From: Bdellovibrionales bacterium
Lineage (GTDB): Bacteria; Myxococcota; XYA12-FULL-58-9; SYDY01
Direction: 5' to 3'
NCBI GenBank assembly: GCA_005801425.1
Contig: SYDY01000054.1
Span: 1-42,222 of the forward strand
Length of the DNA stretch: 42,222 nucleotides
Part shown: positions 23,110 through 42,222 of the stretch, one piece after another
How the letters are laid out: the number at the start of each line of letters is the position of its first letter
Numbering within the stretch: position 1 is the stretch's first letter
Notes under the pieces: generated by a model
Told to the model about the DNA's origin: nothing
Database searches by the model: none
The model's input: only the letters and a program-made list of their open reading frames with translations
Translations under genes and position numbers: made by a program

Positions 23110-23169
23110 GGCCATATTCCTAAGGTGAAAAGGTCCGCTATGGCTACATAAGCATAATGGGTCCGATAT

Positions 23170-23191: not shown

Positions 23192-23197
23192 AGTAGC

Positions 23198-23215: not shown

Positions 23216-23224
23216 ATGATTTCA

Positions 23225-23575
23225 TCACACAAGGTGGGCGGACGCATGTGCTTTCCGCAGACGTGATGTACGACTGCGTTCCAACTCACGCTTCACCAGC
23301 GTAAGAATGCGGTCGTGGGCGAGATCGATAGCCTTGTACATGTTGCTGTCCACTTCGTTTAAAATAAGTGGGCGATGCCGTGGCATGTAGACATGAATAC
23401 GACAGGCCTTGTTGCTCTCATGGCGATGCAATTGACCAAGATCGTCAAGCTCAACCAGCAGATGCATGGCATCACTATCGGCTATCTTGCGCAAAGAAGC
23501 ACCCAGCTTCTCCTCTGCATAACTCCTTAACGCCTGGGTGAGATTCATGTGCCTAGCTTTGACTATAACGTGCAT
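23225..23575 (-). CDS. hpf: Ribosome hibernation promoting factor, short form
   Basis: A 116-aa protein with the YfiA/HPF domain: VIVKARHMNLTQALRSYAEEKLG, an LVELDD beta segment, CRIHVYMPRHRPLILNEVDSNMYKAIDLAHDRIL, and a basic tail (VKRELERSRTSRLRKAH). It binds the 30S subunit and blocks the decoding and mRNA sites in stationary phase. The tail is short, without the dimerisation domain of long HPF, so it fits the short HPF/YfiA type. GAGGAG lies about 9 nt before ATG. Upstream is a ~305-bp gap with a possible promoter. The partner gene rpoN, often next to hpf, is not seen here. Confidence 0.88.
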   Translation of the reverse strand: MHVIVKARHMNLTQALRSYAEEKLGASLRKIADSDAMHLLVELDDLGQLHRHESNKACRIHVYMPRHRPLILNEVDSNMYKAIDLAHDRILTLVKRELERSRTSRLRKAHASAHLV

Positions 23576-23646
23576 AACGACGCACTCCTCAAGGCATACG
23601 TGTCATGAGATGTGATCCCACGAAGCACAATATGTCTCATAAAACC

Positions 23647-23652
23647 ATTATA
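23647..23652 (-). promoter_or_regulatory. Candidate -10 of the hpf promoter
   Basis: Perfect TATAAT on the minus strand, giving a 5' leader of about 65 nt for hpf. The -35 match is only 3 of 6. Confidence 0.3.
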
Positions 23653-23814
23653 CTCCTCCTGAGACGGGGTGCTCGAAAAAATGACTTTCATTGTCTGGGG
23701 CAATTTGCCGGTCGCCATTTATATTTATTGATATTTTGTGTGGTGATTCCCAGCATCAAGCTTTGGGTATGCCATTTGAAACGCGATGTTCGCTCCGTAG
23801 TTGTTCTTATTAAC

Positions 23815-23866
23815 CTCTCCCGCTTGCGGGGGAGATCGTCGCGTAGCGGCGGGTGAGCGTATTCGC
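23815..23866. repeat. Dispersed two-hairpin repeat, copy A
   Basis: CTCTCCC-gcttgc-GGGGGAG (23815-23834), then GTCGC-gta-GCGGC (23838-23850), and the tail GCGGCGGGTGAGCGTATTCGC (23846-23866). The tail matches copy B with one difference, and the hairpin stems differ in sequence but keep their pairing. Confidence 0.6.
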
Positions 23867-23880
23867 ACCAGCACAAAAAA

Positions 23881-24549
23881 TTAATTCGTCCTCGAATACA
23901 CCGGTGGGTGTCCAAATTTGATCATCGCTTCAGCAATGACATCGATCAGCTGCAAGAGACGTTGCTTAAGGCTTGTGGTTGCAAGCAGCTCCTGCTGACG
24001 TAAATGATCGTTAACGAGTACTGCACCTAGGATATCAGCCAAACGCAAAGGGTCAGCCGTCGAGCGCAGCATGGCGGCCAATTGCTCATCGTGGGTTTCT
24101 ACACACGCTTGCAAATTCACCACGCAACTTTGAAACGATGCCATTTCACTGCGTGCCTCAAGAATAGCATCGTGCGACGGCGCCTCAATGGCCGCAATGT
24201 GAAACGAGCGATAGCTGGAGCGTTTGTGAACCTCTTGAAGGAGTCTGCATCGGTCGGTGCCTTCAAGCAGTATGTTGTATCGCCCACTGGGCAATCGCTC
24301 CGCATGAATCAGTTTTCCAAGACAACCGACGTCACATAACTCAGGATGTCGCGAATGTTCTTGGCCTGGTTTAATCATCACAGCACTGAGCAAACCGTCC
24401 ACCTCCAATACATCTTTGATCATGTCGCGATATCTTGTTTCTTGCACGTGCAATGGGATCACCACACCCGGAAAAATCACAGTGCCGGGCAATGGAAAAA
24501 CGGGAAGCTCACGCGCTACGTGGGACGGATATGTCTTCTGATTGTTCAC
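23881..24549 (-). CDS. LON peptidase substrate-binding domain protein
   Basis: A 222-aa protein consisting of the N-terminal domain of Lon without AAA or protease parts. The family start pattern ELPVFPLPGTVIFPGVVIPLHVQETRYRDMI is clear, followed by GCLGKLIHAERLPSGRYNILLEGTDRCRLLQE (the G..g.i.....l.dGr..i...G..R...l pattern), and a helical C-terminus (~150-215). It is the stand-alone class found in many proteobacteria. The start GTG at 24549 has a weak site (TTAGGG). It is divergent from the giant lipoprotein gene, with a ~170-bp spacer. Its function is not settled in the family; substrate recruitment for a protease or ligase is the usual proposal. Confidence 0.9.
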   Translation of the reverse strand: MNNQKTYPSHVARELPVFPLPGTVIFPGVVIPLHVQETRYRDMIKDVLEVDGLLSAVMIKPGQEHSRHPELCDVGCLGKLIHAERLPSGRYNILLEGTDRCRLLQEVHKRSSYRSFHIAAIEAPSHDAILEARSEMASFQSCVVNLQACVETHDEQLAAMLRSTADPLRLADILGAVLVNDHLRQQELLATTSLKQRLLQLIDVIAEAMIKFGHPPVYSRTN

Positions 24550-24606
24550 TCTCAGACCCTAAGATGCGCGTCAGGATGAGGCAATTTCTGTGTTTTTTTG
24601 GAACTC

Positions 24607-24647
24607 GGGCATCCTGCCCGCACATCATTTACGCGGGGAAGATGCCC
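24607..24647. repeat. Inverted repeat in the divergent spacer
   Basis: GGGCATC (24607-24613) pairs with GATGCCC (24641-24647), with CCCGC/GCGGG nested inside. The type is a common dispersed intergenic repeat. A related GC-rich motif is at ~22481-22500. Confidence 0.4.
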
Positions 24648-24665
24648 TCGCTCCAAATGTGATCT

Positions 24666-24721
24666 CATAAAATTCGTAGGGAATGCGATTTTCATGAGAA
24701 AATGTGTCATCCGGGGGTCGT
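24666..24721 (+). promoter_or_regulatory. Conserved upstream block of giant lipoprotein gene 1
   Basis: CATAAAATTCG (24666-24676) and CATCCGGGGGTCGT (24708-24721) recur before gene 2 at exactly the same distance (58 bp from block start to ATG). The first block may be a -35/UP region and the second contains the Shine-Dalgarno-like GGGGG. A -10 is not obvious: GAAAAT here aligns near TAGAAT before gene 2. Confidence 0.45.
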
Positions 24722-24723
24722 GA

Positions 24724-27700
24724 ATGATTCGTTGTGCTTCTAAAGCGGTTGTTGCGGCGTTGATCTGTGTTGCGATGGTGGGCTGTAAGGGCTCTTCATC
24801 ATCTCCGGTTGTTGGAATTGCGTCGTTTTCTGCCGAGGGTGGCACCGGTAGGGATCCTGGTGACGACGTGACGCTGACATGGTCCGTATCCAACGCGGCG
24901 GCGTGCTCCATTGTGGATGGTGATGGCGTCAGTGTTGTGTCTAACACCACGGCGAGTACGTTTGAATGGACCGCACACAAATCCACTATGCTGGTTCTTT
25001 CGTGTGTTGATGCAGATGGTCATGTTGCCAGTAAGTCGCTGTACATGACGGTGTCAGTTGTTGAAATTGCGTCGTTTACTGCCAAATTGGGCGATACGCC
25101 TATCACCGCCGATGTAGAAAAAGACGCGACGGTAACGCTTGCATGGTCTGCGCTCAATGGAACCACATGTTCCATTGTTGACGCCAAGGGTAACAGCGTT
25201 GTTGAGGACACCACCGAGAGTACAGAGGAGTGGACCGCAGACGCATCGACCATGTTGACGCTTACATGTACCGATTCAGAAGACAATACCGTAACCAAAT
25301 CGTTGTATGTGGGTGTGAAAGGCGCGCCGGGTATTCCTTCATTTGCAGTGTCTCCTGAACACACATATCCGGACGGAACAGTGACATTCACATGGGTATC
25401 GCAAAATACAACCGAATGTGTGTTGAAATCAGGCGGTACGGCCATCACGGGTGGCTCTAACTTGGCTGCGAGTGGCTCAAAGACAGGTGTTACCGTTGCT
25501 GAAACGACGACTTTTACCCTTGATTGTACAGGAACCAATGGCACGCACACGACCAGCGAAGTGACCGTCACAACCGATGTGTTGCGTATTGCGTCGTTTC
25601 AAAAAGAAGGCCCCAACAATGCAGGGGCCTATACCGTCACGTGGCGTGTGGACAATGCTGAATCATGCGTCATGAAAGGCAATGACTGTGCGTGGACAGC
25701 ACAAAACAATCTGTGCAGCTTTGCCCTCTCCAGCGCATCGGGCAGTCCCACAGGTTCCGGGAGTGTGAATGTCACGCCGTCAGAACCACTCACACTGGAA
25801 CTTTCGTGCACCAAGGGCAGTGATACAAAAAAAGCCTATCTTGCACTTTCAGGTACGCAGGCCATTATCAACAGTTTTGATGTCTCCCCCTCGCACCTTA
25901 AAGGTGAAGAGACACTGACATTTGCATGGCGAACATCCAATACAAAAGAAAACACATGCGATTTATATGCAGGCAATGTTGCGGTTAATGGAAAAACAAA
26001 TTTGCCCTCCAATGGACTCACCACACTGGCCGCTACAGACGATGCAATCTACATTTTGAAATGCAAAAATTTAACGGAAAGTGAAACGATTGTTTCAGAT
26101 GAACATGCCGTAACGGTGGACGTTGCAATTACAGCTTTTGCATCGAGCTCAGGAAGCGCGCCCGTGGAAGCAGCCGGTACGCCTACTATCACCATCACAG
26201 CGGTTGATGCAAAAGCGAACAACGCTTGTACACTGACCGATGATCGCAACAGCACACCGGTATCATTCATGCATTCTGAAAATACGACGACATATACTGC
26301 AACGTACACCGTCCCAGCATTCAATGGTAACTCAGTGCTTCAGCTTACTGTTAATTGTACAGGCAACAATACCCTCACCACCGACACTGCCAGTAAAACA
26401 TTAATTCTGTATTATGCAGCAGGAACGCTTGGCAGTACATTGATTGCAACGCCATCGCTAATTACTGTGAAAGATGGCCCCAGCACCATTACATGGGGTT
26501 CACAAGGCGCGCAGGGATGTTCACTTAAAGAAGACGTAACGAACGCACCTGAATTGAAATCAGGCACATCAGGCAGTTTGACTGTAGAAAACCTGACCAC
26601 CAAGAAAACCTACAAACTGACGTGCAATAATTTTGGCTCAACGTCCACCGACATAAAAACCGTCGATGTGGATGTGTTTTATTTTGATAACGTGAATGAT
26701 CCGAGCAATCCCCTAAAGCCTACGGTCGATAAAGCATCAGTGAAGAAGTATCTTGAGAACATCACTGTCAGTGCAAAAATTACAGGAGCAACGACAGGCG
26801 ATACATGCACAGTAAATACAGGTTGGATAGTATCGGATCCTACGAATGGCGTATTTACTGCGACAGGCCCCATATCAGGAACTACCGATGTGGTGATGAC
26901 GTGCAAACGCGGCACCACAGCGATTGTTAGCGATGCAGTGAGAGTGACTGTCACGGACCCGAATGTTTCCCCAAGCATCACATTTGTTACCACACCCGCT
27001 GCGACCACGGTGGATTCGGTGACGGCGACGAGGATTGATTATCGCAAGGACGTGACCATTACAGCAACGGTAGCAGGTACAATAGATGGCGATACCTGCA
27101 CTGCGGATCCAGGAGGCTCATTAAGTCGGTCGGGCAATGTATTCAGTGGTACCAGTGTTGGCTTGTCGGCTCAGAACAGTAACATCACGGTGACCTGCAA
27201 GCGCGGCGATATTATCATTGCCACCGCCACAGTGCCCGTTATCGTAACACAGCCTGCCATTGCCATCACGACCACACCTGCACAGGTATCTGGGGTCACG
27301 ACAGTTGATTATCTCCAGGACATGACTCTCACAGCAGTCTCATCAGGATTGCCAACGACTTCATGCGAGGCCAGTACAGGTTGGTCCGTTACAAAGAGCG
27401 ATAACACGTTTACCTTCCGAGGTCGCTTGGCAGAAACAACTTCCATCACGGTGACGTGCACGCAAGCAACGCCCAGCGCGAGTATTTCGGCGAGCTTAGT
27501 GGTGAATGTGAGGCAGTCGGCAGCGAGTGTCAGTAATTCGTCGAGTTCGGGTGAGACCTGCGATATTTTTGTAAAACCTGGTGGAGGCAGCCCCCAAGAT
27601 GGCACCACATGGGCCAAGGCATATGCATCTCTCGCTCCCATTCAGGCCAAAACGGTGTGTGTTCCAAGTGGTTTCTCTTTCACCGGCGTGACTGTTCCAG

Positions 27701-30700
27701 CATATGTACGTGTGCGTTCGGATTGTACACAGTCAGCGGTTGCGAACGGTACTTCGTGCCTTAGCGGTGATACAGGCGTGTGTCACTTTTATGTGAAGAC
27801 GGGTGGTAGCGATAGTTCAAATAACGGCACCACGTCTTGGAGTACGGCATTCGCAACTTTTGGTCCTTTACTCGGCAAAACCGTATGTGCTGGCGTTGGT
27901 GTCAGTATACCAAGCAGCATTCCAGGATACCTGACGGTGAAGAAAAATTGTACATCTACAGGCGCGACGACAACATGTTCAGCCGAAGACCAAACACCTA
28001 CGTGCAATTATTATGTGACGACGACAGGAGGAGCGACAATCAAGGATGGGTCTTCCTGGACCAACGCGTATGACAGCATGTCTCCAGTTCTCGCTTTGGT
28101 CTCTCCTGCGGCTTCTGCTTCTGCTGTTCTGAGTGGAAAAAAAGTATGCATGGCCTCAGGTGTCTATTCTGATCCTGATTCTGTGGTGAATGAAGATAGG
28201 AATGTTCTTGTGGCAAGCAATTCAATCGCCACCAAAACGACGTTTAAGGGCGGGTGTGTGGCCGATGCTGTGACTACAGACACACCGCCAGTTTCGATAT
28301 GCACGCCTTCAGCCTCAGAGACCATCCTCGATGGCCATCGCTTAACACGCCTCATGACCATCCGGAGTGGATCTGTCACTTTAAAAGATCTCACATTTCG
28401 CGCCGGACGAACGACATCGGCAGCCAACTACGGGGGCTGCTTGCTTATCACCGATGGCGCGAGCGTTGCCATGGAGAATGTCAATTTCGTCGAGTGCATG
28501 GCGGAGCATACCACCGATGGTTTTGGCGGCGGTATCTACGTGGGAAAAACCACCAGTGTGTCAACTGCGGGTGTCATTACCGTCAATGCCGCCAGCACGA
28601 CACCTTCCCAGCTCGCATGGCGCGGCGGTTGGGCCCAGGGCAATGATGCATTTCGGGGCGGTGTACTGATGGTTGACGTTGGGAGCACGGTCCAGATCTC
28701 TGATCTTACCGCTGTAAACAATGGGAGTCTTGGTCTTGGAGGGTCGGGTGGCGGAGTGATTGCAGTCTATGGCGATACTTCTGCAGTGAGCGTTGAAAAT
28801 AGTATCTTTAAAAGCAATATTTCTGACAGTGCTGGTGGCGGTGCTATTTATCTACAAAACAATAGTTTCCTTGATGTCGCTGGGTGCTCTTTTTTAGGCA
28901 ACATCGCAAGCTATTATTATGGTGGCGCAATTTACGGGAATGGAGTTGCACCCGTAGTGCGTGTTCGTCACTCTCTGTTTAATGGAAATACGACCAACTG
29001 GGGTTCCGTTGTTACATATGGAGGAGCCATCAGTCTGATCTCTTCAGGCCCTGCGGCCAATGCGCGTGCAAATTTATTGATAAGTGGTAGCACTTTTTCT
29101 GGCAATACCGCACGTACTGGTGGTGCTATTTATGCAAAAGACAGTGATGTCATTTTCTCCCAGAGTCGGTTTGATGGGAACAGTTCATACGAGAGAGGTG
29201 GCGCTGTTTATTTCGAAGAATCCACAACGAGTCAGTTGTTAAGTTTTGGCATTTTTGAGACGGAGTTCACCTACAATCAGTCTTATCCCGTTGTCTATGA
29301 TGGAAGTAATGGGTTTGGTGGCGCAATCTCCGTGTCTTCTCAAAAACTTAATTTTCGAATTGAAGACAGCCGATTTCAATACAATACAGGCAACAACTGG
29401 GGAGGAGCAATCGACGTACGTATGAATAGTGCGGTATCCTCAGTGGTTATTAAGCGGAGCAGTTTTGAGGGAAATGGTGTGAATACCATTGCGCGTGGAG
29501 GAGCCATCTCTACCTATGAGGGTTCACTTGCTGATGTAGAGATCGAAGATAGTGAGTTTATTGGGAATCGGGCCTATCATACGGGCAATGTTGCCTGGTA
29601 TGGAGCGGGCGGCGCTCTTATGTTGGAGCAGGGGCAAAATCGACTTAGAATCGATCGAAGCTATTTTGCTTACAATCGTGCGACAGAAGGCGGGGGGGCC
29701 ATTACCGTTGGCAATGATAGTGGCAATGTGCTCAAGCAGCTTGAAATCAGCAATACGACTTTTATTGGCAATAGTTTATACTCACCCGACGCATCTGCTT
29801 CGCGAACTTTTGCAGGTGTTGCGGTTTCCATGAAAGCTACTGTGAATGCGGGTTTCATTCGAGATACTTCATTTCGCGAAAATGTAGGCGCTTTAAATTG
29901 GCCTGGAGCAAGCACGCAGAGTTTTGGCGGCTCTCTCTATTTCCATTCGACGGTGGGCGTGTCGGGAACACCATTTCGTCTTGAACGCGTCAATTTCTTG
30001 GACAACGTACACACCACCGGCAGTTCTGCTGGGCTTTCCGCAAATACTACGGCGTACATGACGATTGAAGACAGTACGTTTGCGCGCAACACAGCAGGGC
30101 GATTTGCAGCCCTTGAGTTTGATGGAGACAATAGCGTGTACTCCATTGTTAATTCGCGCATCATCGATAATCTGAATGAGAACATCTATGTTGATGGGAT
30201 TAACACTGTAAATGGCGGTGCAGTCTACCTAAGAGGAACAGCGACGCTTGAAGGTGTACAATTCAAAAACAATAAAGGCGCATACAATGGCGGCGCTATT
30301 TGGCATCACAGCGGAACGACAACAGTGCGCGACTGTGATTTTATCAACAACGAAGTATCCAATTTTGGTGGTGCGATATATGAGTATTCTGGTACGCTGA
30401 ACGTTGTTAACTCCACCTTTGCAGGGAACAAAGCCTTGGATGGGGGCGCTATTTATCAAAATCTCAGTTCGCCCGGTCCTGGTACGCTTAAAATTTATCT
30501 TTCGACGTTTACTGGCAATATCGCAACAACAACAACAACGCCCAGTTTTGATGTGAAGCAATCAGGTGCAACCATTAAGGCCTCTGTGTTTGCATCGTCG
30601 GCCGCCAGCTCCGGTGTTGCGGAGAGTACGAACGGCGCGAACGGAATTTGTGTTTCAACCTCGGCTGTCACACTGGTGGGGGATAAGTACTTCTATACTC

Positions 30701-33555
30701 AGCCAGCATCACTGGGGCCAAACAGTGGTTGCAAAGGTAATTCGAGTGACATCACGATGACGACGAGTGCTCTTTCTCTCATTATGGGTTGCTCGGGTAC
30801 TTGTTTGGATTTTACGTCAGCATTTGCAGACTACACGCTTGAAGGGAACGATGGCACTGACGGCAGCGGCAATCCAATTAAAGAGAATGGGTCAAGCGCG
30901 AGTGTTTTTCCTGGCCGACACTACAAGGTCTCGACACGACGTCTTTATGTGAAGCCCAATTCTGGCAATACCTGCACGTTGGAAAATACGACGGTTAGCG
31001 GACGGACCATTACGATGGACGGCACAAGTTGGGAGAGTGCGTTTCCGTGTCCTTCCAATGCCGTTGTGGCCATCAACCGATTTGCTCGCATTCAGCCAGG
31101 CACCACAATCCTCGAACACTACGAAGTGTGGGTACAAAAAGGGGTCTACAATGAGACCGCTACTCTTGTTCTTCCTGAGCGTACCTCATGGTTTGGTGGC
31201 TTTGAAGGCGTGGTAGAAGAAAAAGAGCGGTTCCACCGTCCGGCTCTATGGAGGCTTCCTGATGCAGGGTGGAGCAAAATCCAATACACAAGCGCTAATG
31301 CCGGAGAGGTGATGAAGTATGCAGGGACAAGTAGTACCCCGAAAACCACCCCGGCGAGTGTCGATGGATTTATTTTGTCTCGCAATTCAAATGCAACGGC
31401 AACATCAGTGACCGGACTTAAAGTTGAATACGTAGCCGACTTCACCGCCCGCAACATGCGGCTCGAAGGCAATATTGGCGCAAAGCCGGGGTTTGAAGCC
31501 AGCAATGTCACCGGTGCATTGGTGCTTGAAAATGTGCAGGCAAAAGGCAATAATTTCTCCGGTACACCTGCCGTTCTCACATTCAACGTGACGCCCAATG
31601 CACGTTTGGAAAATGTATATATTGATCATGGTTCAGCAACAGGAGGAGCAACAGGCGTTTCGGTGACAGGCATATCAACACTTTACGCCCGTAATCTGAC
31701 GTTGAGAGGTGCAATTGTCGATGATACAGGCATCAAGCAGGATGCAACCGCCAAAGTGTATTTGAGCGAGAGTGTGGTGTACAACCCAGCATCAGGAAAA
31801 TCCAGCGATGTCACTTCGGGTGGTCAACTACTGTTGGCCAATACCTGTTTGTTTGCTGCAGCAAGCGGAACACCACCCACAGATCACAAAAGCTGGAACG
31901 TTATCATAACCCCAGCAACATCTTTGAGCACCGATAATTTGTTAAACCCTGCGAGTGCTTGCGCCGATGCAGTACAACCTTTGCCTGCATGTCCCAATGA
32001 AGGCGCAACAACGCCTTTGTTGACTGCAACCGGTAGGCGTTGGTGTATGGATGCACAGGGGATCGAACGTATTTGCACCGGTACGTTGGTCTCTTCTACC
32101 ACGACTTGGACCTGCGCAACGGCAACGATCCCATCGGACACCGGCATCGCTCGCAATGGATCCACCCGCACCGACAAACTATGGGATGTTGGGCGCAAAG
32201 ATTTCGGTTTCCATACGCCTGCTCGTATTTGGTATGTCAATCCAGAAGCTGATGCTGGTGGTGATGGTAAAAGTTGGGGCACAGCTTTTCAAACCATCAC
32301 AAGTGCAACAGCGGCTGCAACAACAGCAGGTGACGCCATCTGGATCACCGGCGGTACGTATCGTGCGACCAATGTACGTGATGCTGTGCTCAAAGTTCCC
32401 GCAGGTGTTTCTGTGTTTGGTGGATTTGCGGGGTATGAATCAAGTCCCATCCACAGACGTCGTGGTTTAACATCCACTGTCACTATTTTTGATGGTGATA
32501 TGAATGGCGACGCGGCATGGTCGGCCGAGGACAGCACCAACGTTTCAACAAACGCAGGGGATATTGCACTTGATGGTGTGCGCATCACAGGAGGCAATGG
32601 ACGAGGTTCAAACGATGGCGCAGGTCTTTACGTTGCTTTGGCGTCTAGTCAATCGGCGCTTTTGAGTAATCTCGAAGTGATGCGCAATACGGCGAGAAGT
32701 GGCGCTGGAATGTATATCACCTCTTCGTATGATAGACCTACTGCGCCCAACGTATTGCTTTACAATGTGCGCACGCACGACAATCACGCTGTTGTCGATG
32801 GCGGTGGTGTATATCTCGCCGCCAAGGTCAATGCGCTTATTGAAGATGGGTCGATGCGTAACAATGGCGTCGATCAATCGGGTGGTGCGTTGTATAACGC
32901 AGGCCAGGTTGAATTGCGCAACGTGGTGATTGATCGCAATGCTGCTCTTAATGGCGGCGGTATTGCGCTTGCCAATGATGTACTCACCACGCTGTCCAAT
33001 GTGCAGCTCTCGCGCAACGATGGTGGCTTGGGTGGCGGCATCTACATTGCAAAATTCTTCAAGCTTGCGATCATTCAAAGTACGCTTGCCGAAAATACCG
33101 CAAACAAAGGTGCTGCGATTTTTGCAGAGAGCTTTAATGGTGGTACAACGGTTGCTGTCACTCAAAGCATCGTTGCGGGCAACCTTTCTTCCGATGGAAA
33201 GGTGTTCGCTTTGGCAGATGCTGCGTTGACTGTTTCGTATAACGGGTCATGCGTAGATCTTACGGGAAGCACGACGGAGGGCACGATCTACGGCATTGAT
33301 AGCAACGCCGTCGTAGCCGTTCCTTGGACCACCGGTGAAGTCAATTATGTATTGCCAAAGGCCAGTGTGTGCCGCAATTTGGGAGGTACCGTGGGTGCAG
33401 GCGTGGCGTATGATCTGCGTGCACGCAGCACGTCGCCTGGCGGTGAATCCGAATACAGCCGTGACACATGTACCGCCTATTCACCCGACCCCGGATATCA
33501 CGCCCCCGCCATCGACCGTACCTTCTGCGCCTATCGCCCCGGCATTGATCTATAA
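24724..33555 (+). CDS. Giant surface lipoprotein 1 with Ig-like modules and beta-helix repeats
   Basis: A 2943-aa protein with a signal peptide ending in a lipobox (VAMVGC, Cys21). About ten Ig-like modules of ~85-95 residues follow to ~940, each with a Cys pair (one near W.s.N...C, one near L.C), matching a disulfide per module. Next are three degenerate copies of a DUF1565-like start (YVKTGG...GTTSWSTAFATF, ~945-1130). Residues ~1200-1920 are a polymorphic-type right-handed beta-helix with many GGAI and FxxN repeats (GGAIYLQNNSFLDVAGCSFLGN). Two further DUF1565-type modules begin near 2072 and 2500 (WYVNPEADAGGDGKSWGTAF, FGGFAGYE), the second with its own short helix. The tail ends GYHAPAIDRTFCAYRPGID. 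There is no autotransporter barrel, so it is anchored by lipid. Likely a large adhesin or cell-surface shield. Confidence 0.9.
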   Translation: MIRCASKAVVAALICVAMVGCKGSSSSPVVGIASFSAEGGTGRDPGDDVTLTWSVSNAAACSIVDGDGVSVVSNTTASTFEWTAHKSTMLVLSCVDADGHVASKSLYMTVSVVEIASFTAKLGDTPITADVEKDATVTLAWSALNGTTCSIVDAKGNSVVEDTTESTEEWTADASTMLTLTCTDSEDNTVTKSLYVGVKGAPGIPSFAVSPEHTYPDGTVTFTWVSQNTTECVLKSGGTAITGGSNLAASGSKTGVTVAETTTFTLDCTGTNGTHTTSEVTVTTDVLRIASFQKEGPNNAGAYTVTWRVDNAESCVMKGNDCAWTAQNNLCSFALSSASGSPTGSGSVNVTPSEPLTLELSCTKGSDTKKAYLALSGTQAIINSFDVSPSHLKGEETLTFAWRTSNTKENTCDLYAGNVAVNGKTNLPSNGLTTLAATDDAIYILKCKNLTESETIVSDEHAVTVDVAITAFASSSGSAPVEAAGTPTITITAVDAKANNACTLTDDRNSTPVSFMHSENTTTYTATYTVPAFNGNSVLQLTVNCTGNNTLTTDTASKTLILYYAAGTLGSTLIATPSLITVKDGPSTITWGSQGAQGCSLKEDVTNAPELKSGTSGSLTVENLTTKKTYKLTCNNFGSTSTDIKTVDVDVFYFDNVNDPSNPLKPTVDKASVKKYLENITVSAKITGATTGDTCTVNTGWIVSDPTNGVFTATGPISGTTDVVMTCKRGTTAIVSDAVRVTVTDPNVSPSITFVTTPAATTVDSVTATRIDYRKDVTITATVAGTIDGDTCTADPGGSLSRSGNVFSGTSVGLSAQNSNITVTCKRGDIIIATATVPVIVTQPAIAITTTPAQVSGVTTVDYLQDMTLTAVSSGLPTTSCEASTGWSVTKSDNTFTFRGRLAETTSITVTCTQATPSASISASLVVNVRQSAASVSNSSSSGETCDIFVKPGGGSPQDGTTWAKAYASLAPIQAKTVCVPSGFSFTGVTVPAYVRVRSDCTQSAVANGTSCLSGDTGVCHFYVKTGGSDSSNNGTTSWSTAFATFGPLLGKTVCAGVGVSIPSSIPGYLTVKKNCTSTGATTTCSAEDQTPTCNYYVTTTGGATIKDGSSWTNAYDSMSPVLALVSPAASASAVLSGKKVCMASGVYSDPDSVVNEDRNVLVASNSIATKTTFKGGCVADAVTTDTPPVSICTPSASETILDGHRLTRLMTIRSGSVTLKDLTFRAGRTTSAANYGGCLLITDGASVAMENVNFVECMAEHTTDGFGGGIYVGKTTSVSTAGVITVNAASTTPSQLAWRGGWAQGNDAFRGGVLMVDVGSTVQISDLTAVNNGSLGLGGSGGGVIAVYGDTSAVSVENSIFKSNISDSAGGGAIYLQNNSFLDVAGCSFLGNIASYYYGGAIYGNGVAPVVRVRHSLFNGNTTNWGSVVTYGGAISLISSGPAANARANLLISGSTFSGNTARTGGAIYAKDSDVIFSQSRFDGNSSYERGGAVYFEESTTSQLLSFGIFETEFTYNQSYPVVYDGSNGFGGAISVSSQKLNFRIEDSRFQYNTGNNWGGAIDVRMNSAVSSVVIKRSSFEGNGVNTIARGGAISTYEGSLADVEIEDSEFIGNRAYHTGNVAWYGAGGALMLEQGQNRLRIDRSYFAYNRATEGGGAITVGNDSGNVLKQLEISNTTFIGNSLYSPDASASRTFAGVAVSMKATVNAGFIRDTSFRENVGALNWPGASTQSFGGSLYFHSTVGVSGTPFRLERVNFLDNVHTTGSSAGLSANTTAYMTIEDSTFARNTAGRFAALEFDGDNSVYSIVNSRIIDNLNENIYVDGINTVNGGAVYLRGTATLEGVQFKNNKGAYNGGAIWHHSGTTTVRDCDFINNEVSNFGGAIYEYSGTLNVVNSTFAGNKALDGGAIYQNLSSPGPGTLKIYLSTFTGNIATTTTTPSFDVKQSGATIKASVFASSAASSGVAESTNGANGICVSTSAVTLVGDKYFYTQPASLGPNSGCKGNSSDITMTTSALSLIMGCSGTCLDFTSAFADYTLEGNDGTDGSGNPIKENGSSASVFPGRHYKVSTRRLYVKPNSGNTCTLENTTVSGRTITMDGTSWESAFPCPSNAVVAINRFARIQPGTTILEHYEVWVQKGVYNETATLVLPERTSWFGGFEGVVEEKERFHRPALWRLPDAGWSKIQYTSANAGEVMKYAGTSSTPKTTPASVDGFILSRNSNATATSVTGLKVEYVADFTARNMRLEGNIGAKPGFEASNVTGALVLENVQAKGNNFSGTPAVLTFNVTPNARLENVYIDHGSATGGATGVSVTGISTLYARNLTLRGAIVDDTGIKQDATAKVYLSESVVYNPASGKSSDVTSGGQLLLANTCLFAAASGTPPTDHKSWNVIITPATSLSTDNLLNPASACADAVQPLPACPNEGATTPLLTATGRRWCMDAQGIERICTGTLVSSTTTWTCATATIPSDTGIARNGSTRTDKLWDVGRKDFGFHTPARIWYVNPEADAGGDGKSWGTAFQTITSATAAATTAGDAIWITGGTYRATNVRDAVLKVPAGVSVFGGFAGYESSPIHRRRGLTSTVTIFDGDMNGDAAWSAEDSTNVSTNAGDIALDGVRITGGNGRGSNDGAGLYVALASSQSALLSNLEVMRNTARSGAGMYITSSYDRPTAPNVLLYNVRTHDNHAVVDGGGVYLAAKVNALIEDGSMRNNGVDQSGGALYNAGQVELRNVVIDRNAALNGGGIALANDVLTTLSNVQLSRNDGGLGGGIYIAKFFKLAIIQSTLAENTANKGAAIFAESFNGGTTVAVTQSIVAGNLSSDGKVFALADAALTVSYNGSCVDLTGSTTEGTIYGIDSNAVVAVPWTTGEVNYVLPKASVCRNLGGTVGAGVAYDLRARSTSPGGESEYSRDTCTAYSPDPGYHAPAIDRTFCAYRPGIDL

Positions 33556-33588
33556 CTGTCGCCCGCTTTTATCCTGCCATTATCAATC

Positions 33589-33644
33589 CATAAAATTCGC
33601 GGACGTACTCTTCTTTACATAGAATGGCTCCATCCGGGGGTCGT
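33589..33644 (+). promoter_or_regulatory. Conserved upstream block of giant lipoprotein gene 2
   Basis: CATAAAATTCG (33589-33599) and CATCCGGGGGTCGT (33631-33644), spaced exactly as in gene 1, with less-conserved bases between. TAGAAT at 33620-33625 is a possible -10. Confidence 0.45.
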
Positions 33645-33646
33645 CA

Positions 33647-36600
33647 ATGATTCGTTGTGCTTCTAAGGCAGTTGTTACGGCGTTGATTTGCATTGCGATG
33701 GTTGGTTGCAAGGAATCCACGTCGGCATCTCCGGTTGTTGGTATTGCATCATTTGTCGCCGATGTTGGCAGTGGTCGGGCGATACCCGGCGATGAAGTGA
33801 CGTTGACATGGGCTGCGTCCAATGCGGTGGCGTGCTCCATCGTGGATGGTGATGGCGTCAGTGTTGTATCCAACACCACAGCGAGTACGTTCGAGTGGAC
33901 TGCTCACAAATCCACCATGCTGGTTCTCTCTTGTATTGATGCGGATGGGCATGTTTCCAGCAAATCGTTGTATGTTTCGGTGTTTGTTGTTGAAATTGCG
34001 TCGTTTACGGCCAAATTGGGAAGTACACCTGTCGCTGGCGATGTAGAAAAAGATGCAACCGTGACGCTCGAATGGTCTGCGCTCAATGCAACCACATGCT
34101 CGATTGTTGATGCCAAAGAGAATAGTGTTGTTGAAGATACGACCGAAAGTACGGTGCAGTGGACTGCAACCGCATCGACCATGTTGACCCTTACATGCAC
34201 CGATTCAGAGGACAATACTGCAACCAAGTCGTTGTACGTGGGCGTGAAAGGCGCGCCGGGTATTCCTTCGTTTGTGGCATCGCCCACGAACACATATCCC
34301 GGCGGAACAGTGACGTTTACATGGGCATCACAAAACACCACAGGATGCGTACTTAAGTCAGGAGAAACAATCATTGCAGATGATTTGGCAGTTGAAGGTT
34401 CCAAGGCGAATGTTGTCATTGCTTCAACAAAAACATTCACTCTTAATTGTACTGGTACCAACGGCACACACACGACCCGCGAAGTGACAGTCACAACCGA
34501 TGTGTTGCGTATTGTGTCATTTGAAAAATCTGTACCTAGCTGTACCGGCTCTTGCGAGGTGACGTGGCATGTCGACAACGCCACGTCATGCGATTTGTGG
34601 GGCAATGGGTGCAAGTGGGTTAGCAATGCTTCGTGCAGCTTTTCTGTAAATAATCAAACAGGCACGATGGCTGCATCAGGAACCGCCATTGTAAGTTCTG
34701 ACAAGCAGCTTACTTTGGAGCTTTCATGTCAGAAGGGAAATAACACCGCAAGTGCCTTTCTTTCACTTCAGGGAACGGAACAGGCCATCATTAACAGTTT
34801 TACTGTTTCGCCCAGAGAGTCCAACCCCAAGGGTGGAAGTGATTTGACATTCGCGTGGCGAACATCAAATACAAAACCAGATTCGTGTGCGATTTATGAT
34901 GGAAACAATACTTCCGTGAAGTCCAATTTGGCTTCCAACGGACTCACCACACTTACAGCGACAGATGATGCAACCTATGTTTTGAAATGCAGAAATGCCG
35001 CAGATACCGGAGATGTTCTTTGGGAAACACCCCTTGCAGTAACGGTCGATGTGGCGATTACAGCGTTCACGTCAAGCTCAGGCAGTACGGCAATTACAGC
35101 AGCCTCTTCGATTATCCTCACCATCACAGCAATCGACGCAAAAACGAGCGATGCCTGTACCCTGACCGATGACCGCAACAGCACACCTGTATTGTTCACG
35201 CCCTCCGAAAGCATTCCGACCACGTATACTGCAGAATATACCGTTCCAGATTTCAACGGCAATTCGATTCTCCAGCTCACGGTGAACTGTACAGGGAACA
35301 ACATCAACCCCGACACTGCCAGCAAATCACTTATTTTGTTCTATGCGGCAGGTGATCTTAAGAGCACGTTGGTTGCAACACCTTCTGTTATTAGCATCAA
35401 GGGTGGGTCCAGTACCGTCGCATGGGGGTCACAAGGGGCGCAGGGATGTTCACTTAAAGAAAATGTAACGGACGCACCTGAATTGAAATCAGGCACATCA
35501 GGCAGCTTAAATGTAGAACCGATCACCAAGACAACCTACAAACTGACGTGCAATAATTTTGGTTCAACGTCCACCGACGTAAAAACCGTCGATGTGGATG
35601 TGTTTTATTTCGAGAACACGCCTACAGCTTCACCCTCGACGGGTGTCAAAAAATATCTCGATGATGTCACGATCACTGCGACGATAACGGGCGCAAAAGA
35701 GGGCGATACCTGCACAGTGAATACCGGATGGGGTCGTGTTCTGGACACCCAACCAGGAGAGTTTGCATTCAAAGGCCGGCTGTCTGGAAATACTGATATT
35801 GTCATGACGTGCAAACGCGGCACAACGGCGATTGTGAGCAGCCCTGTGGCCGTGAGTGTCGAAGATTCGGGCATTGCATTTGTCACGGTTCCTGCCGCGA
35901 CGACAGTGGAAGGTGTGACGGCGACGCGTGTCGATTATCTCCAAAATATAACAATCAAGGTAACTATCGACGGTGCACAAAATGGCGATCAATGTACTTC
36001 AAACACCTGGGGTGAATTGACTCGAGATGGTACGCTATTTACAGGGCAGGGCAGTTTGACCGCCTCAACAAATATTGCTGTAACATGCAAACGCGGCGAA
36101 ACGACGATTGCAACCGGTACCGTGCCTGTTACAGTGATGGCCATCGCATCATTTCCTCCGCCGGCAACAGCGACCACTTGTTCTCATTATATTACGCCTG
36201 ATGGGATGAGGCCCAGTGACTCAATGTATCCAGAAGATACAACGCCATCCGACTCATTGTATATGCGCTTTGTGGACCTTTACGGTTACAACTGCACTGG
36301 ATCCTCTGGTAACTCGTTTAGTTGTTCTGGAGCTGGCACTTGCAATGGTGCTACGAGTGCAAATGCCACCGTGGCATCTGGTGCTGCCGCCTGCACGGGA
36401 TCGATAACAGCAAAAACATGTACTGCACCGTTCACTTGTACTTCATCTGGCGCGCTATCAGGTACGTGCGCAAGCTTAACTGCCCCAACCGTAACAGGAG
36501 CCACTTGCAACCTTTCGACGATTTCGCAGAATCTCGACAACAAAACCATCTGCATGACCACCGGTGTTCACTTTGTGAATCGCACCGATGCCAGTCTTAC

Positions 36601-39600
36601 CGCCACCAAAGATGATTCATTAACGCTTACGGGCACAGGTTCCGTGACTTTTGTAGGCGGATTTCCCAATCCGGCATCGACAGAATCAAGAACAATTCTC
36701 GATGGTCGTTACTTGTCGCGTTTGATGACTCTTAAGGGTTTAGGCAGCAAGGTAACACTAAAAGATGTGGTCTTTCGTTCAGGGAAGATGAGTACGAATG
36801 CAGACGTATCCCGTGGTGGATGTTTGCGTATTGAAAGTGGTGCGAGTGCATCGCTTGAAAATGTCGATTTTTTGGAGTGTTTTGCCGGAGATACGACTGG
36901 CGGGAGTGCGACTGTAGGCCATGCTTTTGGCGGCGCAATTTATCTCACAGGTGGCAGCAGTAGCCTTTCATGGCGTGGCGGACTGGCTATGGGAAATGAT
37001 GCCGGCAAGGGGATGGTTCTTTCTGCGAATTTAGGAAGTTCCGCGTATATTGGATCGGTGACAGTGCGCAATAACGGCAGTGGTTATGGCTTTATTTCTT
37101 CTTATAGCGAGACGGGACCCATCTCTCTCGAAGGGAATAATACTGCGGTGTCTGTTGTTAATTCTCTTTTCCAAAATAATTCCGGAGAATCCTATGGTGG
37201 CGCCATCTCTTTGACCCATAATAGTTTCCTTGACGTGTCCGGCTGTGTTTTCCGAAATAACAGCAGTGCATATTACGGGGGTGCTATTGGGGCCCATGAT
37301 TTATACGGCGTCGTACCAAGTCCAAGTCCCGTGGTACGCGTTAATCATTCTCTTTTTGAAAACAACAGCTCATATTATGGGGATAATGGCGGGCGAGGTG
37401 GCGCAGTCTCTGTCTATTTAGCAGCGGGTGCATCGCGCGGAACACTCCTCGTTGCAGAGAGTCGTTTTGTCGGGAATGTGGTCAATGTTGATGGCGGTGC
37501 GCTTCATGTTCGGAATGCCGATGTGACGTTGGATAGCAACACGTTTGAATCCAATAAATCAGGGCACAATGGCGGTGCGATGTATTTATACGACTCAACT
37601 GATGGCGCTAGGCCAGGGGGCGGTCTTAATGTTCAGATACGAAATAGCAGTTTCCTATCGAACATCGCTGCGGAGTTGACTGGCGACAATGGGAATGGTG
37701 GGGCTCTGTTTCTCGTTACCGAGAATATTGGTTCGCCTATGCGTATTGTTATCGATGATGCGATATTTGAAAACAATGCAAGCAACACCTCGGGTGGGGC
37801 CATTTCATTGACTGGCCCTGCGCCCAGCTCGGTAACGATTAGACGTAGTTTGTTTCGAACCAATGTTGCACGCAATGATGGCCTGAGCGATGCAGCAGGT
37901 GGTTTGGGCGGTGCTATTTTTGCCGATTCTACCACGTCATTAGATATCTCCGATTCCGAATTTTCAGGCAATCGTTCCTATGCTGAAGATAATGGGCCGG
38001 CCGAAGGCGGTGCCATCTACGGCAATACAATGGAAAGCCTCAAAATCGCCCGCAGTATGTTCGCATACAACCGAACCGAGAGATATGGTGGTGCGATACG
38101 TTTAAATGCTTCCATAAACGTTTTAGAAATCACAGATTCTGATTTTTTTGGTAATGGTCTCTCGACGCGCGTCAATGATGGTAAACGTGGTTTGGCAATG
38201 ATGACGGGTTCTGTTGGTGCTGGATTCATTCGCGGAACTACCTTTCGATCGCATGTGGGAAGTTCGTTTAATGGTACATCCCCAGTCGATGGCTACGGCG
38301 GTACGATTCATTTCAACGCAAAAATAGGCGATAAAGCAGCACCCTTCCGCATTGAAGATACACGTTTTGAAGACAATGTTTTTACCAATGGAGTGTCGGC
38401 AGGAATTTCCAGCGGGGATATGGGAGCAGGTGGCTTACTGGTGCAGCGCTGCACGTTTGCGCGCAACAGTGCGAGTCGCGCCGCAGCGATGCTAGTGGCG
38501 GGCACCAACAGTGGTACGCTGAGTATTGTAGATAGCAAATTTATAGATAACGTGACCAATGCATCAAAGGGTGTCGACATAGAGACAGGCGGTGCTCTTC
38601 ATCTTAATATGAATACAGGATCGGTTGTGATTGAGGGCTCTTTATTTCAAGGCAACACAGGACGTGTGGGGGGGGGCATTCTGTTCTATAATGGTGCCAC
38701 TGGTAATACTTATACCGCTACGGTTCGCAACAGTACGTTTCTCAATAATCACGCATATCGCCATGCTGCAGAAGCAACGGACTCAAAGGCCGGATTTGGT
38801 GGTGCGATTGGTGTTTTAAATGGACAACACACCGTTAACGTCGTGAATAGCACTTTTGTAGGCAATATCGCAGATGCAGACGGCGGCGCCATTGTCCAAT
38901 ATGGAGCTACGATTAATGTCTATTTGAGTACTTTTGTGGGAAACACGAAAGGGGCGTCGGGAACTGGGGCGGATTATAAATACCAATTAGGCGTTACTGG
39001 AGGAGTATTCAATAAAGCAGCATCCGTTTTTGCTTCTACAAGTCCGGGGGTGACAGCAGTTATTGCTGATGCTGTATGTGTCTCTCCTAACGCCTTAACG
39101 GCTGTAGATCCCAACGGTAGATACTTTTTTCAAACCCCCACTACTGATTCCGATGGATGCACGGGCACGGCTACAAATGCGACGATTGCTGCTGCCAGTG
39201 GCTGGATGGGTTGTTCCTCCACATCGACAAATCCAACATACCTTTGTGTTGGCTCCACGTCTTCGCAATCATCGCTGATACGTGAAGATGCTGATGGAGC
39301 GAATGATAAAGTTTTCCCCGGCCGCCACTACAAAGTAGCAACGCGTCGCATGTATGTTGCGGTTGGTGCTTCGGGTAAAGCCGATGGAACAAGTTGGGCC
39401 GATGCATTCACACTTCCATCCCAAGCCATCACCGCCATCAACAAGTTTGCGCGTATCACATCAAGCACAACGATTCTCGAAAACTACGAAGTGTGGGTGA
39501 AGCAAGGAACATATAACGAAACGGCAACGCTTTCATTACCAGATCGCTCTAAATGGTATGGTGGCTTTGAGGGCACTGAAACAGAACTTTATCAACGTCC

Positions 39601-42007
39601 TATGCCGATCACGTATTCGGTGTTGAGTACAACAAGCAACATCGCATTTCATCGGGCAGAAATTGCCGGCACCACAACGACCACGCGAGTGGCCGTTGTC
39701 TTCGATGGCTTTCGCCTACAAAAAGGGGACCGCGCAGAAGGCTCAACCGCTGCGACCGCTTTGACGATTTATAAGGCATCAAATGTCATTGTTCAAAATA
39801 TATACATAGATGCGAATGAGACCAAAGCATCGGGTTTACGAATCGAGAATTCCACCGATGTATTTTTGGGCAATGTGGTTGTTGATCAAGCAGTCGATGG
39901 CGGCGTATCGGCGATTTTGACCCAAGATGCCAAGGTCGTCGCTGACAATATCTATGTCGCAGCCAGGAGGAGTAGCATTGGCGCCTCACTGACGTACGGG
40001 ATCACGATTAAGAGCGCAAGTACCACAGCGAGCGCGTCTCAGGTATGGCTTCGCAATGCAACTGTGACGACAGAGGCAACAGCACTCGGTATCCAATTGC
40101 TGAAAGATAGCGTCATCACCAACGCAAGCGCACCGGAACTTTATATCACAGAGAGTGTATTGGATCTGACGGCAATTGCGAGCACGCAGAGTGTTCAAAT
40201 CAATTCAAACACACTTTTCATTGCAAACAGCTTGCTCCGTGAAGATGCATCCAACAAAGTTGCAACATCTAATTTGGCTTGGAACGTAACATCACTAGCC
40301 TCAGGTACGGTGGCAAGCTTGCTTGATACAACAGCATCCCATCCTCGCCCAATCCGCACCGATTTAACACAAAGTATTGAAGTGCAGCCGCTGCCACCGT
40401 GTCCACTTACGGGTGCGACAGAAACTTCATCACAAGGATCTCGTTGGTGTGTAGATAGCACAGGCACCGAACGTATTTGTCTCTCTGCTGCTGCATCGCC
40501 ATTCGCTTGGTCTTGCAGCCTTGCAGTTCCCACCAACACTGGCCTCGCTCGCAACGGTTCAACCCGCAAAGATAAACTCTGGGACGTGGGTCGCAAAGAC
40601 TTCGGTTATCACGCACCAGATCGCGTTTGGTACGTTGATGCATCGGCATCTTCGAGTACCGATTGTGGCAAAAGTTGGGCAACTGCTTGCCCACTCCTCA
40701 GTGATGCCATCGCAAAAGCAACAAGAATAGGCGACGCCATTTGGATTGCCGATGGCACGTATCGCGCCACATCGTCCAATAGAACAGTATTGAATGTTCC
40801 CGCAGGCGTATCGGTGTTCGGTGGATTTTTCGGACGTGAAACAAATCCAGATCAACGTCGCCATGGTGTTGCATCCGCAACTACCATTCTTGATGGCGAC
40901 ATCGATGGGGGTGGTGCATGGTCCGCCGAAGACAGCACCCATGTGGTGACCAACGCAGGCGATATTGCGCTTGATGGTTTGACCATTGCGGGCGGCAATG
41001 CATCCAACAGCAACGGTGGCGGTGTTTCTCTCTCCATGACAGGCACCACATCAGCACTGTTGAACGGACTTGATATTTATCACAACGCGGCATCCAAAGG
41101 CGGTGGCGTTTATGTTACATCATCGGCGCTACCAAGCAATCCAAGTATCAATTTCAATTTGCGCACCTACAACGTGCGTATGCATGACAACCGTGCAGGA
41201 ATGGATGGCGGTGGTATGCACATTGATACCAACGTGAGCGCACTCATTGAGGGTGGCTCATTCCGCAACAATGGTGCTGACCAAAATGGTGGTGCATTGT
41301 ACAGTGTCGTTGCCACGGAATTGCGCAATGTGGTCATCGATCACAATGCCGCACTCAAAGGCGGTGGTATTGCATTGGGTGATGCTGTGGGCTCCATTAC
41401 GCTGAAGCAGGTTCAGTTATCTCGCAACGATGCAGGCTTGGGCGGTGGTTTATATGGCGCTGGCACGTTGAGTGCTATTGTTGTAAATCAAAGCACTCTT
41501 GCAGAAAACACCGCCCATCGTGGCGCTGTGGTGTTTTTTGAGAAGAAAGCCTCCAGTCCAACGCCAATGATGGGACTCAACAGCGTTGTATTGGTGGCCA
41601 ATACCTCCGAGGCTTTGTGTACGCCCCTGGAAAATCCTGCCACAGCCCCCACATCATCAAAAACAGAAGTGATTTGCGCAGCCAACGTGGCATTCCCAAC
41701 AACGGATGCTACTTCTTGCATCAATCCAGCGGATGCATCAGCCGTCGTCGCTGTTCCTTGGACCACCGGCGAAGTCACCTACGTATTGCCCAAGGCAAGC
41801 ACATGCCGCGGTTTGGGTGGCACAGTGGACTCCGGCATCTTCGATCTCCGCTCACTCAGCACCTCCCCCGGCGGTGAGTCCGAATACAGCCGTGATGGGT
41901 GTCCCTCAAGTCCGCAAAGCTCCGGCGATATTGCGAAACGCGACCCCGGCTACCACGCCCCGGCCATCGATCGCACTTTCTGTGCCTACCGCCCGGGCAT
42001 CGATTGA
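33647..42007 (+). CDS. Giant surface lipoprotein 2, tandem paralogue of lipoprotein 1
   Basis: A 2786-aa protein with the same signal peptide and lipobox (IAMVGC). It shares the N-terminal Ig-like modules (for example VLSCIDADGHVSSKSLYVSV, SIVDAKENSVVEDTTEST), the beta-helix core and the C-terminal DUF1565-type modules and tail (GYHAPAIDRTFCAYRPGID). It has about one Ig-like module fewer than protein 1. Where protein 1 has three DUF1565-like units, this one has a distinct Cys-rich insertion (~residues 880-960; YNCTGSSGNSFSCSGAGTC, CTAPFTCTSSG). The beta-helix differs in repeat number and sequence (AFGGAIYLTGG, GGAIGAHDLYG). Both proteins have no C-terminal barrel. It lies 91 bp after gene 1, with its own upstream block, so it can be transcribed separately. 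Confidence 0.9.
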   Translation: MIRCASKAVVTALICIAMVGCKESTSASPVVGIASFVADVGSGRAIPGDEVTLTWAASNAVACSIVDGDGVSVVSNTTASTFEWTAHKSTMLVLSCIDADGHVSSKSLYVSVFVVEIASFTAKLGSTPVAGDVEKDATVTLEWSALNATTCSIVDAKENSVVEDTTESTVQWTATASTMLTLTCTDSEDNTATKSLYVGVKGAPGIPSFVASPTNTYPGGTVTFTWASQNTTGCVLKSGETIIADDLAVEGSKANVVIASTKTFTLNCTGTNGTHTTREVTVTTDVLRIVSFEKSVPSCTGSCEVTWHVDNATSCDLWGNGCKWVSNASCSFSVNNQTGTMAASGTAIVSSDKQLTLELSCQKGNNTASAFLSLQGTEQAIINSFTVSPRESNPKGGSDLTFAWRTSNTKPDSCAIYDGNNTSVKSNLASNGLTTLTATDDATYVLKCRNAADTGDVLWETPLAVTVDVAITAFTSSSGSTAITAASSIILTITAIDAKTSDACTLTDDRNSTPVLFTPSESIPTTYTAEYTVPDFNGNSILQLTVNCTGNNINPDTASKSLILFYAAGDLKSTLVATPSVISIKGGSSTVAWGSQGAQGCSLKENVTDAPELKSGTSGSLNVEPITKTTYKLTCNNFGSTSTDVKTVDVDVFYFENTPTASPSTGVKKYLDDVTITATITGAKEGDTCTVNTGWGRVLDTQPGEFAFKGRLSGNTDIVMTCKRGTTAIVSSPVAVSVEDSGIAFVTVPAATTVEGVTATRVDYLQNITIKVTIDGAQNGDQCTSNTWGELTRDGTLFTGQGSLTASTNIAVTCKRGETTIATGTVPVTVMAIASFPPPATATTCSHYITPDGMRPSDSMYPEDTTPSDSLYMRFVDLYGYNCTGSSGNSFSCSGAGTCNGATSANATVASGAAACTGSITAKTCTAPFTCTSSGALSGTCASLTAPTVTGATCNLSTISQNLDNKTICMTTGVHFVNRTDASLTATKDDSLTLTGTGSVTFVGGFPNPASTESRTILDGRYLSRLMTLKGLGSKVTLKDVVFRSGKMSTNADVSRGGCLRIESGASASLENVDFLECFAGDTTGGSATVGHAFGGAIYLTGGSSSLSWRGGLAMGNDAGKGMVLSANLGSSAYIGSVTVRNNGSGYGFISSYSETGPISLEGNNTAVSVVNSLFQNNSGESYGGAISLTHNSFLDVSGCVFRNNSSAYYGGAIGAHDLYGVVPSPSPVVRVNHSLFENNSSYYGDNGGRGGAVSVYLAAGASRGTLLVAESRFVGNVVNVDGGALHVRNADVTLDSNTFESNKSGHNGGAMYLYDSTDGARPGGGLNVQIRNSSFLSNIAAELTGDNGNGGALFLVTENIGSPMRIVIDDAIFENNASNTSGGAISLTGPAPSSVTIRRSLFRTNVARNDGLSDAAGGLGGAIFADSTTSLDISDSEFSGNRSYAEDNGPAEGGAIYGNTMESLKIARSMFAYNRTERYGGAIRLNASINVLEITDSDFFGNGLSTRVNDGKRGLAMMTGSVGAGFIRGTTFRSHVGSSFNGTSPVDGYGGTIHFNAKIGDKAAPFRIEDTRFEDNVFTNGVSAGISSGDMGAGGLLVQRCTFARNSASRAAAMLVAGTNSGTLSIVDSKFIDNVTNASKGVDIETGGALHLNMNTGSVVIEGSLFQGNTGRVGGGILFYNGATGNTYTATVRNSTFLNNHAYRHAAEATDSKAGFGGAIGVLNGQHTVNVVNSTFVGNIADADGGAIVQYGATINVYLSTFVGNTKGASGTGADYKYQLGVTGGVFNKAASVFASTSPGVTAVIADAVCVSPNALTAVDPNGRYFFQTPTTDSDGCTGTATNATIAAASGWMGCSSTSTNPTYLCVGSTSSQSSLIREDADGANDKVFPGRHYKVATRRMYVAVGASGKADGTSWADAFTLPSQAITAINKFARITSSTTILENYEVWVKQGTYNETATLSLPDRSKWYGGFEGTETELYQRPMPITYSVLSTTSNIAFHRAEIAGTTTTTRVAVVFDGFRLQKGDRAEGSTAATALTIYKASNVIVQNIYIDANETKASGLRIENSTDVFLGNVVVDQAVDGGVSAILTQDAKVVADNIYVAARRSSIGASLTYGITIKSASTTASASQVWLRNATVTTEATALGIQLLKDSVITNASAPELYITESVLDLTAIASTQSVQINSNTLFIANSLLREDASNKVATSNLAWNVTSLASGTVASLLDTTASHPRPIRTDLTQSIEVQPLPPCPLTGATETSSQGSRWCVDSTGTERICLSAAASPFAWSCSLAVPTNTGLARNGSTRKDKLWDVGRKDFGYHAPDRVWYVDASASSSTDCGKSWATACPLLSDAIAKATRIGDAIWIADGTYRATSSNRTVLNVPAGVSVFGGFFGRETNPDQRRHGVASATTILDGDIDGGGAWSAEDSTHVVTNAGDIALDGLTIAGGNASNSNGGGVSLSMTGTTSALLNGLDIYHNAASKGGGVYVTSSALPSNPSINFNLRTYNVRMHDNRAGMDGGGMHIDTNVSALIEGGSFRNNGADQNGGALYSVVATELRNVVIDHNAALKGGGIALGDAVGSITLKQVQLSRNDAGLGGGLYGAGTLSAIVVNQSTLAENTAHRGAVVFFEKKASSPTPMMGLNSVVLVANTSEALCTPLENPATAPTSSKTEVICAANVAFPTTDATSCINPADASAVVAVPWTTGEVTYVLPKASTCRGLGGTVDSGIFDLRSLSTSPGGESEYSRDGCPSSPQSSGDIAKRDPGYHAPAIDRTFCAYRPGID

Positions 42008-42022
42008 TTCTTTTTGCAGAAA

Positions 42023-42109
42023 ACTCTCCCTCTGGGGGAGTCGTTTGCGAAGCAAACGGTGGGGGTGTTCGAATCAAAGTAATATCAAGCGGCGGGTGAG
42101 GGTATTCGC
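42023..42109. repeat. Dispersed two-hairpin repeat, copy B
   Basis: ACTCTCCC-tct-GGGGGAGT (42023-42041) and CGTTTGC-gaa-GCAAACG (42042-42058), then a tail containing GCGGCGGGTGAGGGTATTCGC (42089-42109). The first hairpin could also act as a weak terminator for gene 2, although no T-tract follows. Beyond it, 42110-42222 shows no gene. Confidence 0.6.
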
Positions 42110-42222
42110 TTTAAAGCAATATCCATCGTTTCGTTGACACACAACCCACCATCCTGTTAACTCCGTGCCCACAATCAAGCGATGGGGCGTCGCCAAGTTG
42201 GTAAGGCACTGGTTTTTGATAC

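Follow-up and report, generated by a model that had tools for sequence, protein, structure and literature searches.

The window, that is, the whole stretch of 42,222 nucleotides analysed here, belongs to a draft genome of 121 contigs (3.38 Mb assembly), in which a search for 16S rRNA gave no match. It encodes two giant modular proteins, A and B, whose long reading frames are both intact and lie 91 bp apart (33556-33646), as described in the initial annotation of this DNA (Table 1). The neighbouring genes are of ordinary kinds and encode a Lon-type domain protein (upstream), FtsE/FtsX/M23, a mechanosensitive channel and GMP synthase. No Rfam families were found in 23000-42222. The contig starts inside the gene of a cysteine-rich protein (fragment 1-1011), which lacks a Pfam match and carries a 114-bp tandem repeat at 1-302 (2.6 copies, 93% matches). 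At the other end, the contig breaks off within a sequence (42180-42222) that looks like the beginning of a tRNA gene (TGGGGCGTCGCCAAGTTGGTAAGGCA...), although ARAGORN calls none.

Table 1. Features of the locus encoding the giant proteins A and B (positions are those of the window)
Feature	Position	Strand	Evidence or remark
Gene A, giant modular predicted lipoprotein, 2943 aa	24724..33555	+	Intact ORF; Chlam_PMP repeat E=1.1e-12
Gene A signal peptide and lipobox (AMVGC, +2 Lys)	24724..24786	+	PROSITE PS51257 pattern match
Gene A stalk, ten Ig-like modules m1-m10 with paired cysteines, aa 28-931	24805..27516	+	Module alignment and tree; AlphaFold2 model of the B stalk all-beta, Foldseek tandem-Ig matches
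Gene A pre-helix units, DUF1565-head-like, repeated, aa ~932-1145	27517..28158	+	Cys-rich unit instead in B and C
Gene A Pmp-type beta-helix core, aa ~1146-2065	28159..30918	+	GGAI/FxxN repeats far above shuffle; PF02415
Gene A C-terminal helix units 2 (aa 2066-2484) and 3 (aa 2485-2943), conserved tail	30919..33552	+	
Intergenic region with CATAAAATTC and CATCCGGGGGTCGT	33589..33646	+	Common to the region upstream of A (24666-24723); putative function
Gene B, giant modular predicted lipoprotein, 2786 aa	33647..42007	+	Intact ORF
Gene B stalk, nine Ig-like modules m1-m9, aa 29-830, A-like	33731..36136	+	A-B fourfold-site difference 0.43
Gene B Cys-rich pre-helix unit, aa ~871-960	36257..36526	+	Homologue in C, none in A
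Gene B beta-helix core, aa ~961-1892, C-like	36527..39322	+	Amino-acid identity and fourfold-site differences
Gene B C-terminal helix units 2 and 3, conserved tail	39323..42004	+	
Strongest A-B conversion-like tract, module 7	26492..26684 (partner 35421-35610)	+	92% over 190 bp
Second A-B high-identity tract, modules 1-2/3	24889..25340 (partner 33818-34269)	+	85% over 452 bp

The start codons of A and B are preceded by similar sequences, CATAAAATTC and then CATCCGGGGGTCGT, and the pattern CATAAAAWTC has three matches in the window versus 0.28 expected. Because this short pre-start sequence is common to both genes, B is predicted to have, probably, its own promoter and ribosome-binding region.

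We identified a third paralogue, C, on contig C87 of the same genome (L009:9760-17784), which the initial annotation had missed. Its better start is the ATG at L009:9775, behind GGAGG, giving a product of 2669 aa. No copies beyond A, B and C were found in the assembly. The lipobox reported earlier for A and B matches the PROSITE pattern PS51257, with a lysine after the cysteine, and this lipobox with Lys at +2 is common to all three proteins. Thus A, B and C are predicted lipoproteins, with a lipid anchor seen only at the level of the motif.

Behind the lipobox comes a stalk whose modules measure 82-105 aa and contain one or more cysteine pairs each. The module alignment bears out the earlier description of cysteine-paired Ig-like modules that differ in number between A and B, and the counts of ten, nine and five in A, B and C uphold module gain or loss. 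The modules of A and B pair by position (m1-m9), always as best partners, with 48-88% identity; m10 is an extra module of A without a partner in B, and the modules of C are counterparts of m4, m5, m6, m7 and m9. In the module tree, m5 and m7 of C lie on long branches, and m8, m9 and m10 are mutually related with weakly resolved branching. No Pfam model matched the stalk modules. An AlphaFold2 model of the B stalk is all beta, with low confidence (pLDDT 50 for the stalk; mostly 65-86 over modules 1-3 and poor later), and its best PDB matches in Foldseek are tandem Ig-like proteins, among them GhpA, titin, DSCAM and contactin. Since the chain has several domains and the model is weak, superposition scores are low, and the matches therefore support the fold class only. 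The top match, the Aureispira grappling hook protein GhpA (9fly, 9flp), is likewise a giant bacterial surface protein with tandem Ig-like domains, but it is far longer, and the match reflects a generic Ig fold at low model confidence and low TM-scores, for which no homology is claimed. We predict a disulphide-stabilised, Ig-like stalk.

The unit between stalk and helix differs as the initial annotation had noted, with DUF1565-head-like units in A (aa ~944-1145) and a Cys-rich unit in B (aa ~871-960). The head that follows is a Pmp-type beta-helix. Over the whole proteins, GG[AG][ILVM] motifs number 20 and 22 in A and B, versus about 1.3-1.4 in shuffled sequences, and FxxN motifs 19 and 24, versus about 5.6-5.8; the middle region matches PF02415 (Chlam_PMP, E=1.1e-12). 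Two further helix-like units resembling DUF1565 come after the head. FPGRHY or G[FY]H.P motifs close all three helix units, and the final one lies inside a conserved 21-aa tail. Unit 3 of A gave weak DUF1565/Chlam_PMP matches below cut-off (12.3 bits versus a cut-off of 20.3 for PF07602, DUF1565), and its likeness to DUF1565 is a resemblance only. Full-length scans gave no Pfam match to the Pmp middle region (E<=0.1) or to the autotransporter barrel (PF03797). The AlphaFold model of the C-terminal part (pLDDT 39) is too poor to use and adds no weight on the question of a barrel.

The initial annotation reported an identical tail and took conserved ends with a diverged middle as what exchange between A and B would give. 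The last 21 residues, DPGYHAPAIDRTFCAYRPGID, are indeed the same in both proteins, but 10 of the 21 codons differ silently. Gene conversion is thus rejected as the cause of the identical tail, which is kept by selection at the protein level instead. Conservation of the ends holds for the stalk only; in the C-terminal unit, A and B share about 58% identity, and their silent divergence lies just short of saturation.

Sliding comparison of the three paralogues places B with different partners along its length. In the stalk, B mostly shares 60-88% amino-acid identity with A (about 50% in modules 4 and 9). Over the pre-helix unit and the helix core it mostly shares 49-75% with C, and there A and B mostly share 30-55%. 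Informative sites supporting AB:BC:AC stand at 157:31:28 for the stalk and at 84:248:41 for the middle, and the best breakpoint (A 773/B 764/C 439) has a max-chi2 of 145 versus a maximum of 21 in 2000 permutations. Lineage-specific acceleration could mimic some of these amino-acid patterns, but silent sites argue against it. Because amino-acid counts could reflect uneven selection, we used fourfold-degenerate sites, which saturate at about 72%. At these sites the A-B difference is 0.43 in the stalk versus 0.76 in the middle (p=3e-14), and in the middle B and C differ by 0.60 versus 0.76 for A and B (p=1e-4); for B-C, the middle compared with the stalk gave p=0.09. Divergence along A and B is thus non-uniform at silent sites too, which favours the recombination proposed earlier over uniform decay of an old duplication.

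In terms of sequence relationships, B is a mosaic, with an A-like stalk and a C-like pre-helix unit and helix core. Assembly chimerism is an unlikely source of this pattern, since exact common runs are at most 34 bp. Old stable duplications under region-specific selection, in which the differences in identity reflect constraint and not recombination, would account for the tail conserved at the protein level with its silently different codons. They would also fit the C-terminal unit, where the three paralogues are nearly equidistant (informative sites AB:BC:AC 59:50:48; fourfold differences of 59-64% for all three pairs). This explanation is improbable, because the silent fourfold sites differ by region, and the stalk is not simply codon-constrained, given that A-C (76%) and B-C (69%) are saturated in the same stalk. 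It also leaves the pre-helix unit common to B and C and missing from A to be explained. Silent-site divergence points to different ancestry of the two regions, not to selection. The recombination between tandem copies suggested by the initial annotation is therefore supported as to mosaicism and patchy, conversion-like tracts, but A-B recombination alone does not explain the pattern, because the middle of B resembles C. As the comparison covers three sequences and no outgroup, the transfer direction is tentative, and so is some of the signal for the topology.

Silent divergence is patchy both in the A-B stalk (variance, p=0.0006) and in the B-C helix (variance reached in 0 of 5000 shuffles). 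Nucleotide comparison of A and B revealed short conversion-like tracts of the kind that had been anticipated; the best, in module 7, contains 20 identical codons in a row (p=0.006). All of this exchange is old, because the longest exact A-B match is 34 bp and the A-B fourfold-site difference is at least 0.21 in every stalk module (the longest B-C match is 31 bp). Judged from these alignments, exchange happened long ago and probably more than once.

The earlier suggestion of surface antigen variation finds no support in its active form. If ongoing conversion or slippage among A, B and C switched surface heads, it could explain the mosaic structure, the patchy tracts and the differing module numbers, and a G9 tract inside B (38668-38676) would offer a site for slippage. 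Such phase or antigenic variation is nevertheless very unlikely. The exact runs stop at 34 bp (A-B) and 31 bp (B-C), the best long tract is only 92% identical, and the reading frames of A, B and C are all intact. We found neither recent high-identity exchange nor contingency repeats at A, B and C. Poly-G slippage in B was rejected as well: G9-or-longer runs occur genome-wide at about chance (25 overlapping hits), and the tract is ordinary. On present evidence this is not a supported case of an actively switching antigen locus.

Relatives were sought in 8 genomes of the same order and 195 of the phylum. Matches occur in 13 of the 195 phylum genomes (own genome included); outside the own genome they reach about 30-45% identity over partial stretches, and none is a close homologue. 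Of two contig searches for orthologues, one found none and the other only two distant helix proteins. Within the order, the relatives L012, L013 and L029 combine a lipobox and a beta-helix with a stalk that is Cys-rich or beta-sandwich-like. L028, whose lipobox fails the PROSITE pattern, and L031 match this architecture partly. L031 is a lipoprotein with four near-identical tandem Cys-paired Ig modules, cut by the contig end, in which no helix was seen; the A/B/C module profile matches it (E=1.5e-31 in a one-sequence search). The module duplication in L031 looks recent. These same-order lipoproteins share with A, B and C the stalk and a DUF1565-type or Pmp-type helix, but their open frames are 643-1299 aa long and their identity of about 30-45% covers short stretches only. 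The architecture, considered unusual in the initial annotation, is thus not exceptional in the order, because lipobox, stalk and beta-helix recur in distant relatives from its other families, and Pmp-like helices are documented outside Chlamydiae. Striking as the design is, it is built from known ingredients; what is special here is the size and the three-paralogue mosaic.

Like chlamydial Pmp proteins, A and B repeat GGA[ILV] and FxxN motifs along the helix core at intervals of ~27-35 residues (Chlam_PMP E=1.1e-12). Unlike them, A and B carry a lipobox and an Ig stalk and match no model of the Pmp middle region or autotransporter barrel, and the locus is not chlamydia-like. Debrine and colleagues reported PF02415 in more than 100 non-chlamydial species, as well as a Pmp-type helix in MBQ2830912.1, an Ig-like domain repeat protein of Methanobrevibacter (PMC10715098), and these documented cases weaken the novelty of a Pmp helix outside Chlamydiae. 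MBQ2830912.1 resembles A and B in combining a Pmp-type beta-helix with Ig-like repeats, but it is archaeal, whereas A, B and C are bacterial, are predicted to be lipoproteins and join an N-terminal stalk to three helix units. The same authors argue that the motifs are buried, placing exposed loops on one face (PMC10715098), which supports a role of the head in loop display.

We consider it likely, though well short of certain, that A, B and C form a lineage-specific family of giant surface-displayed lipoproteins shaped by ancient module gain, loss and exchange, the third gene included. In this family of putative outer-membrane proteins, the lipid anchor would hold a long disulphide-stabilised Ig-like stalk that carries the Pmp-type right-handed beta-helix, the two helix units and the conserved tail. 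Variable loops on the helix face may bind to a surface, a polysaccharide or another cell. Diversification of the family would have come about by ancient duplication and by stalk-module loss or gain. In the direction of transfer that we infer, recombination close to where stalk and head meet joined an A-type stalk to a C-type head in B; alternatively, the head of A was replaced instead. The short conversion patches would have come later.

The proteins may instead be periplasmic or released, for instance as a polysaccharide-binding scaffold. A search of the genome for the Slam/SlipAM exporter (PF04575) gave no match, as did the control genomes, and no barrel was identified; DUF1565-type helices are generic, and a lipobox alone does not establish surface topology. 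We still regard this as unlikely, since a size of ~2700-2900 aa, together with a long Ig stalk and a loop-bearing helix, is typical of extracellular adhesins. Under the E. coli rule, moreover, Lys at +2 does not predict inner-membrane retention. Surface display thus remains our preferred reading, with the proteins presumably located at the outer-membrane surface and acting in adhesion or recognition.

A more speculative and rather doubtful extension is that the three genes form a stalk/head shuffling set, in which boundary recombination swaps whole binding heads and related strains hold other combinations; if true, it would be a modular system for altering what the cell binds. The locus preserves a silent-site record of module exchange near the stalk/head boundary in giant, apparently lipid-anchored Pmp-type proteins outside Chlamydiae. 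Barrel-free lipoprotein beta-helices recur in this poorly sampled order of bacteria and pose the question of how lipoproteins so large would reach the surface.

A dispersed palindromic repeat, composed of GGGGGAGTCG, a variable stem-loop and CGGTGGGG, occurs just 3' of B and 3' of C and is paired on either side of C (42035-42064; L009:9480, 9577, 17822 and 18263; L010:5307). There are seven strict copies in the genome, and other copies adjoin ordinary genes. As the pattern was derived from these very sites, its enrichment is only suggestive, and it could serve as a recombination substrate. The repeat also lies directly 3' of another very large Cys-rich protein of the same genome (L039:526-6294; 1922 aa).
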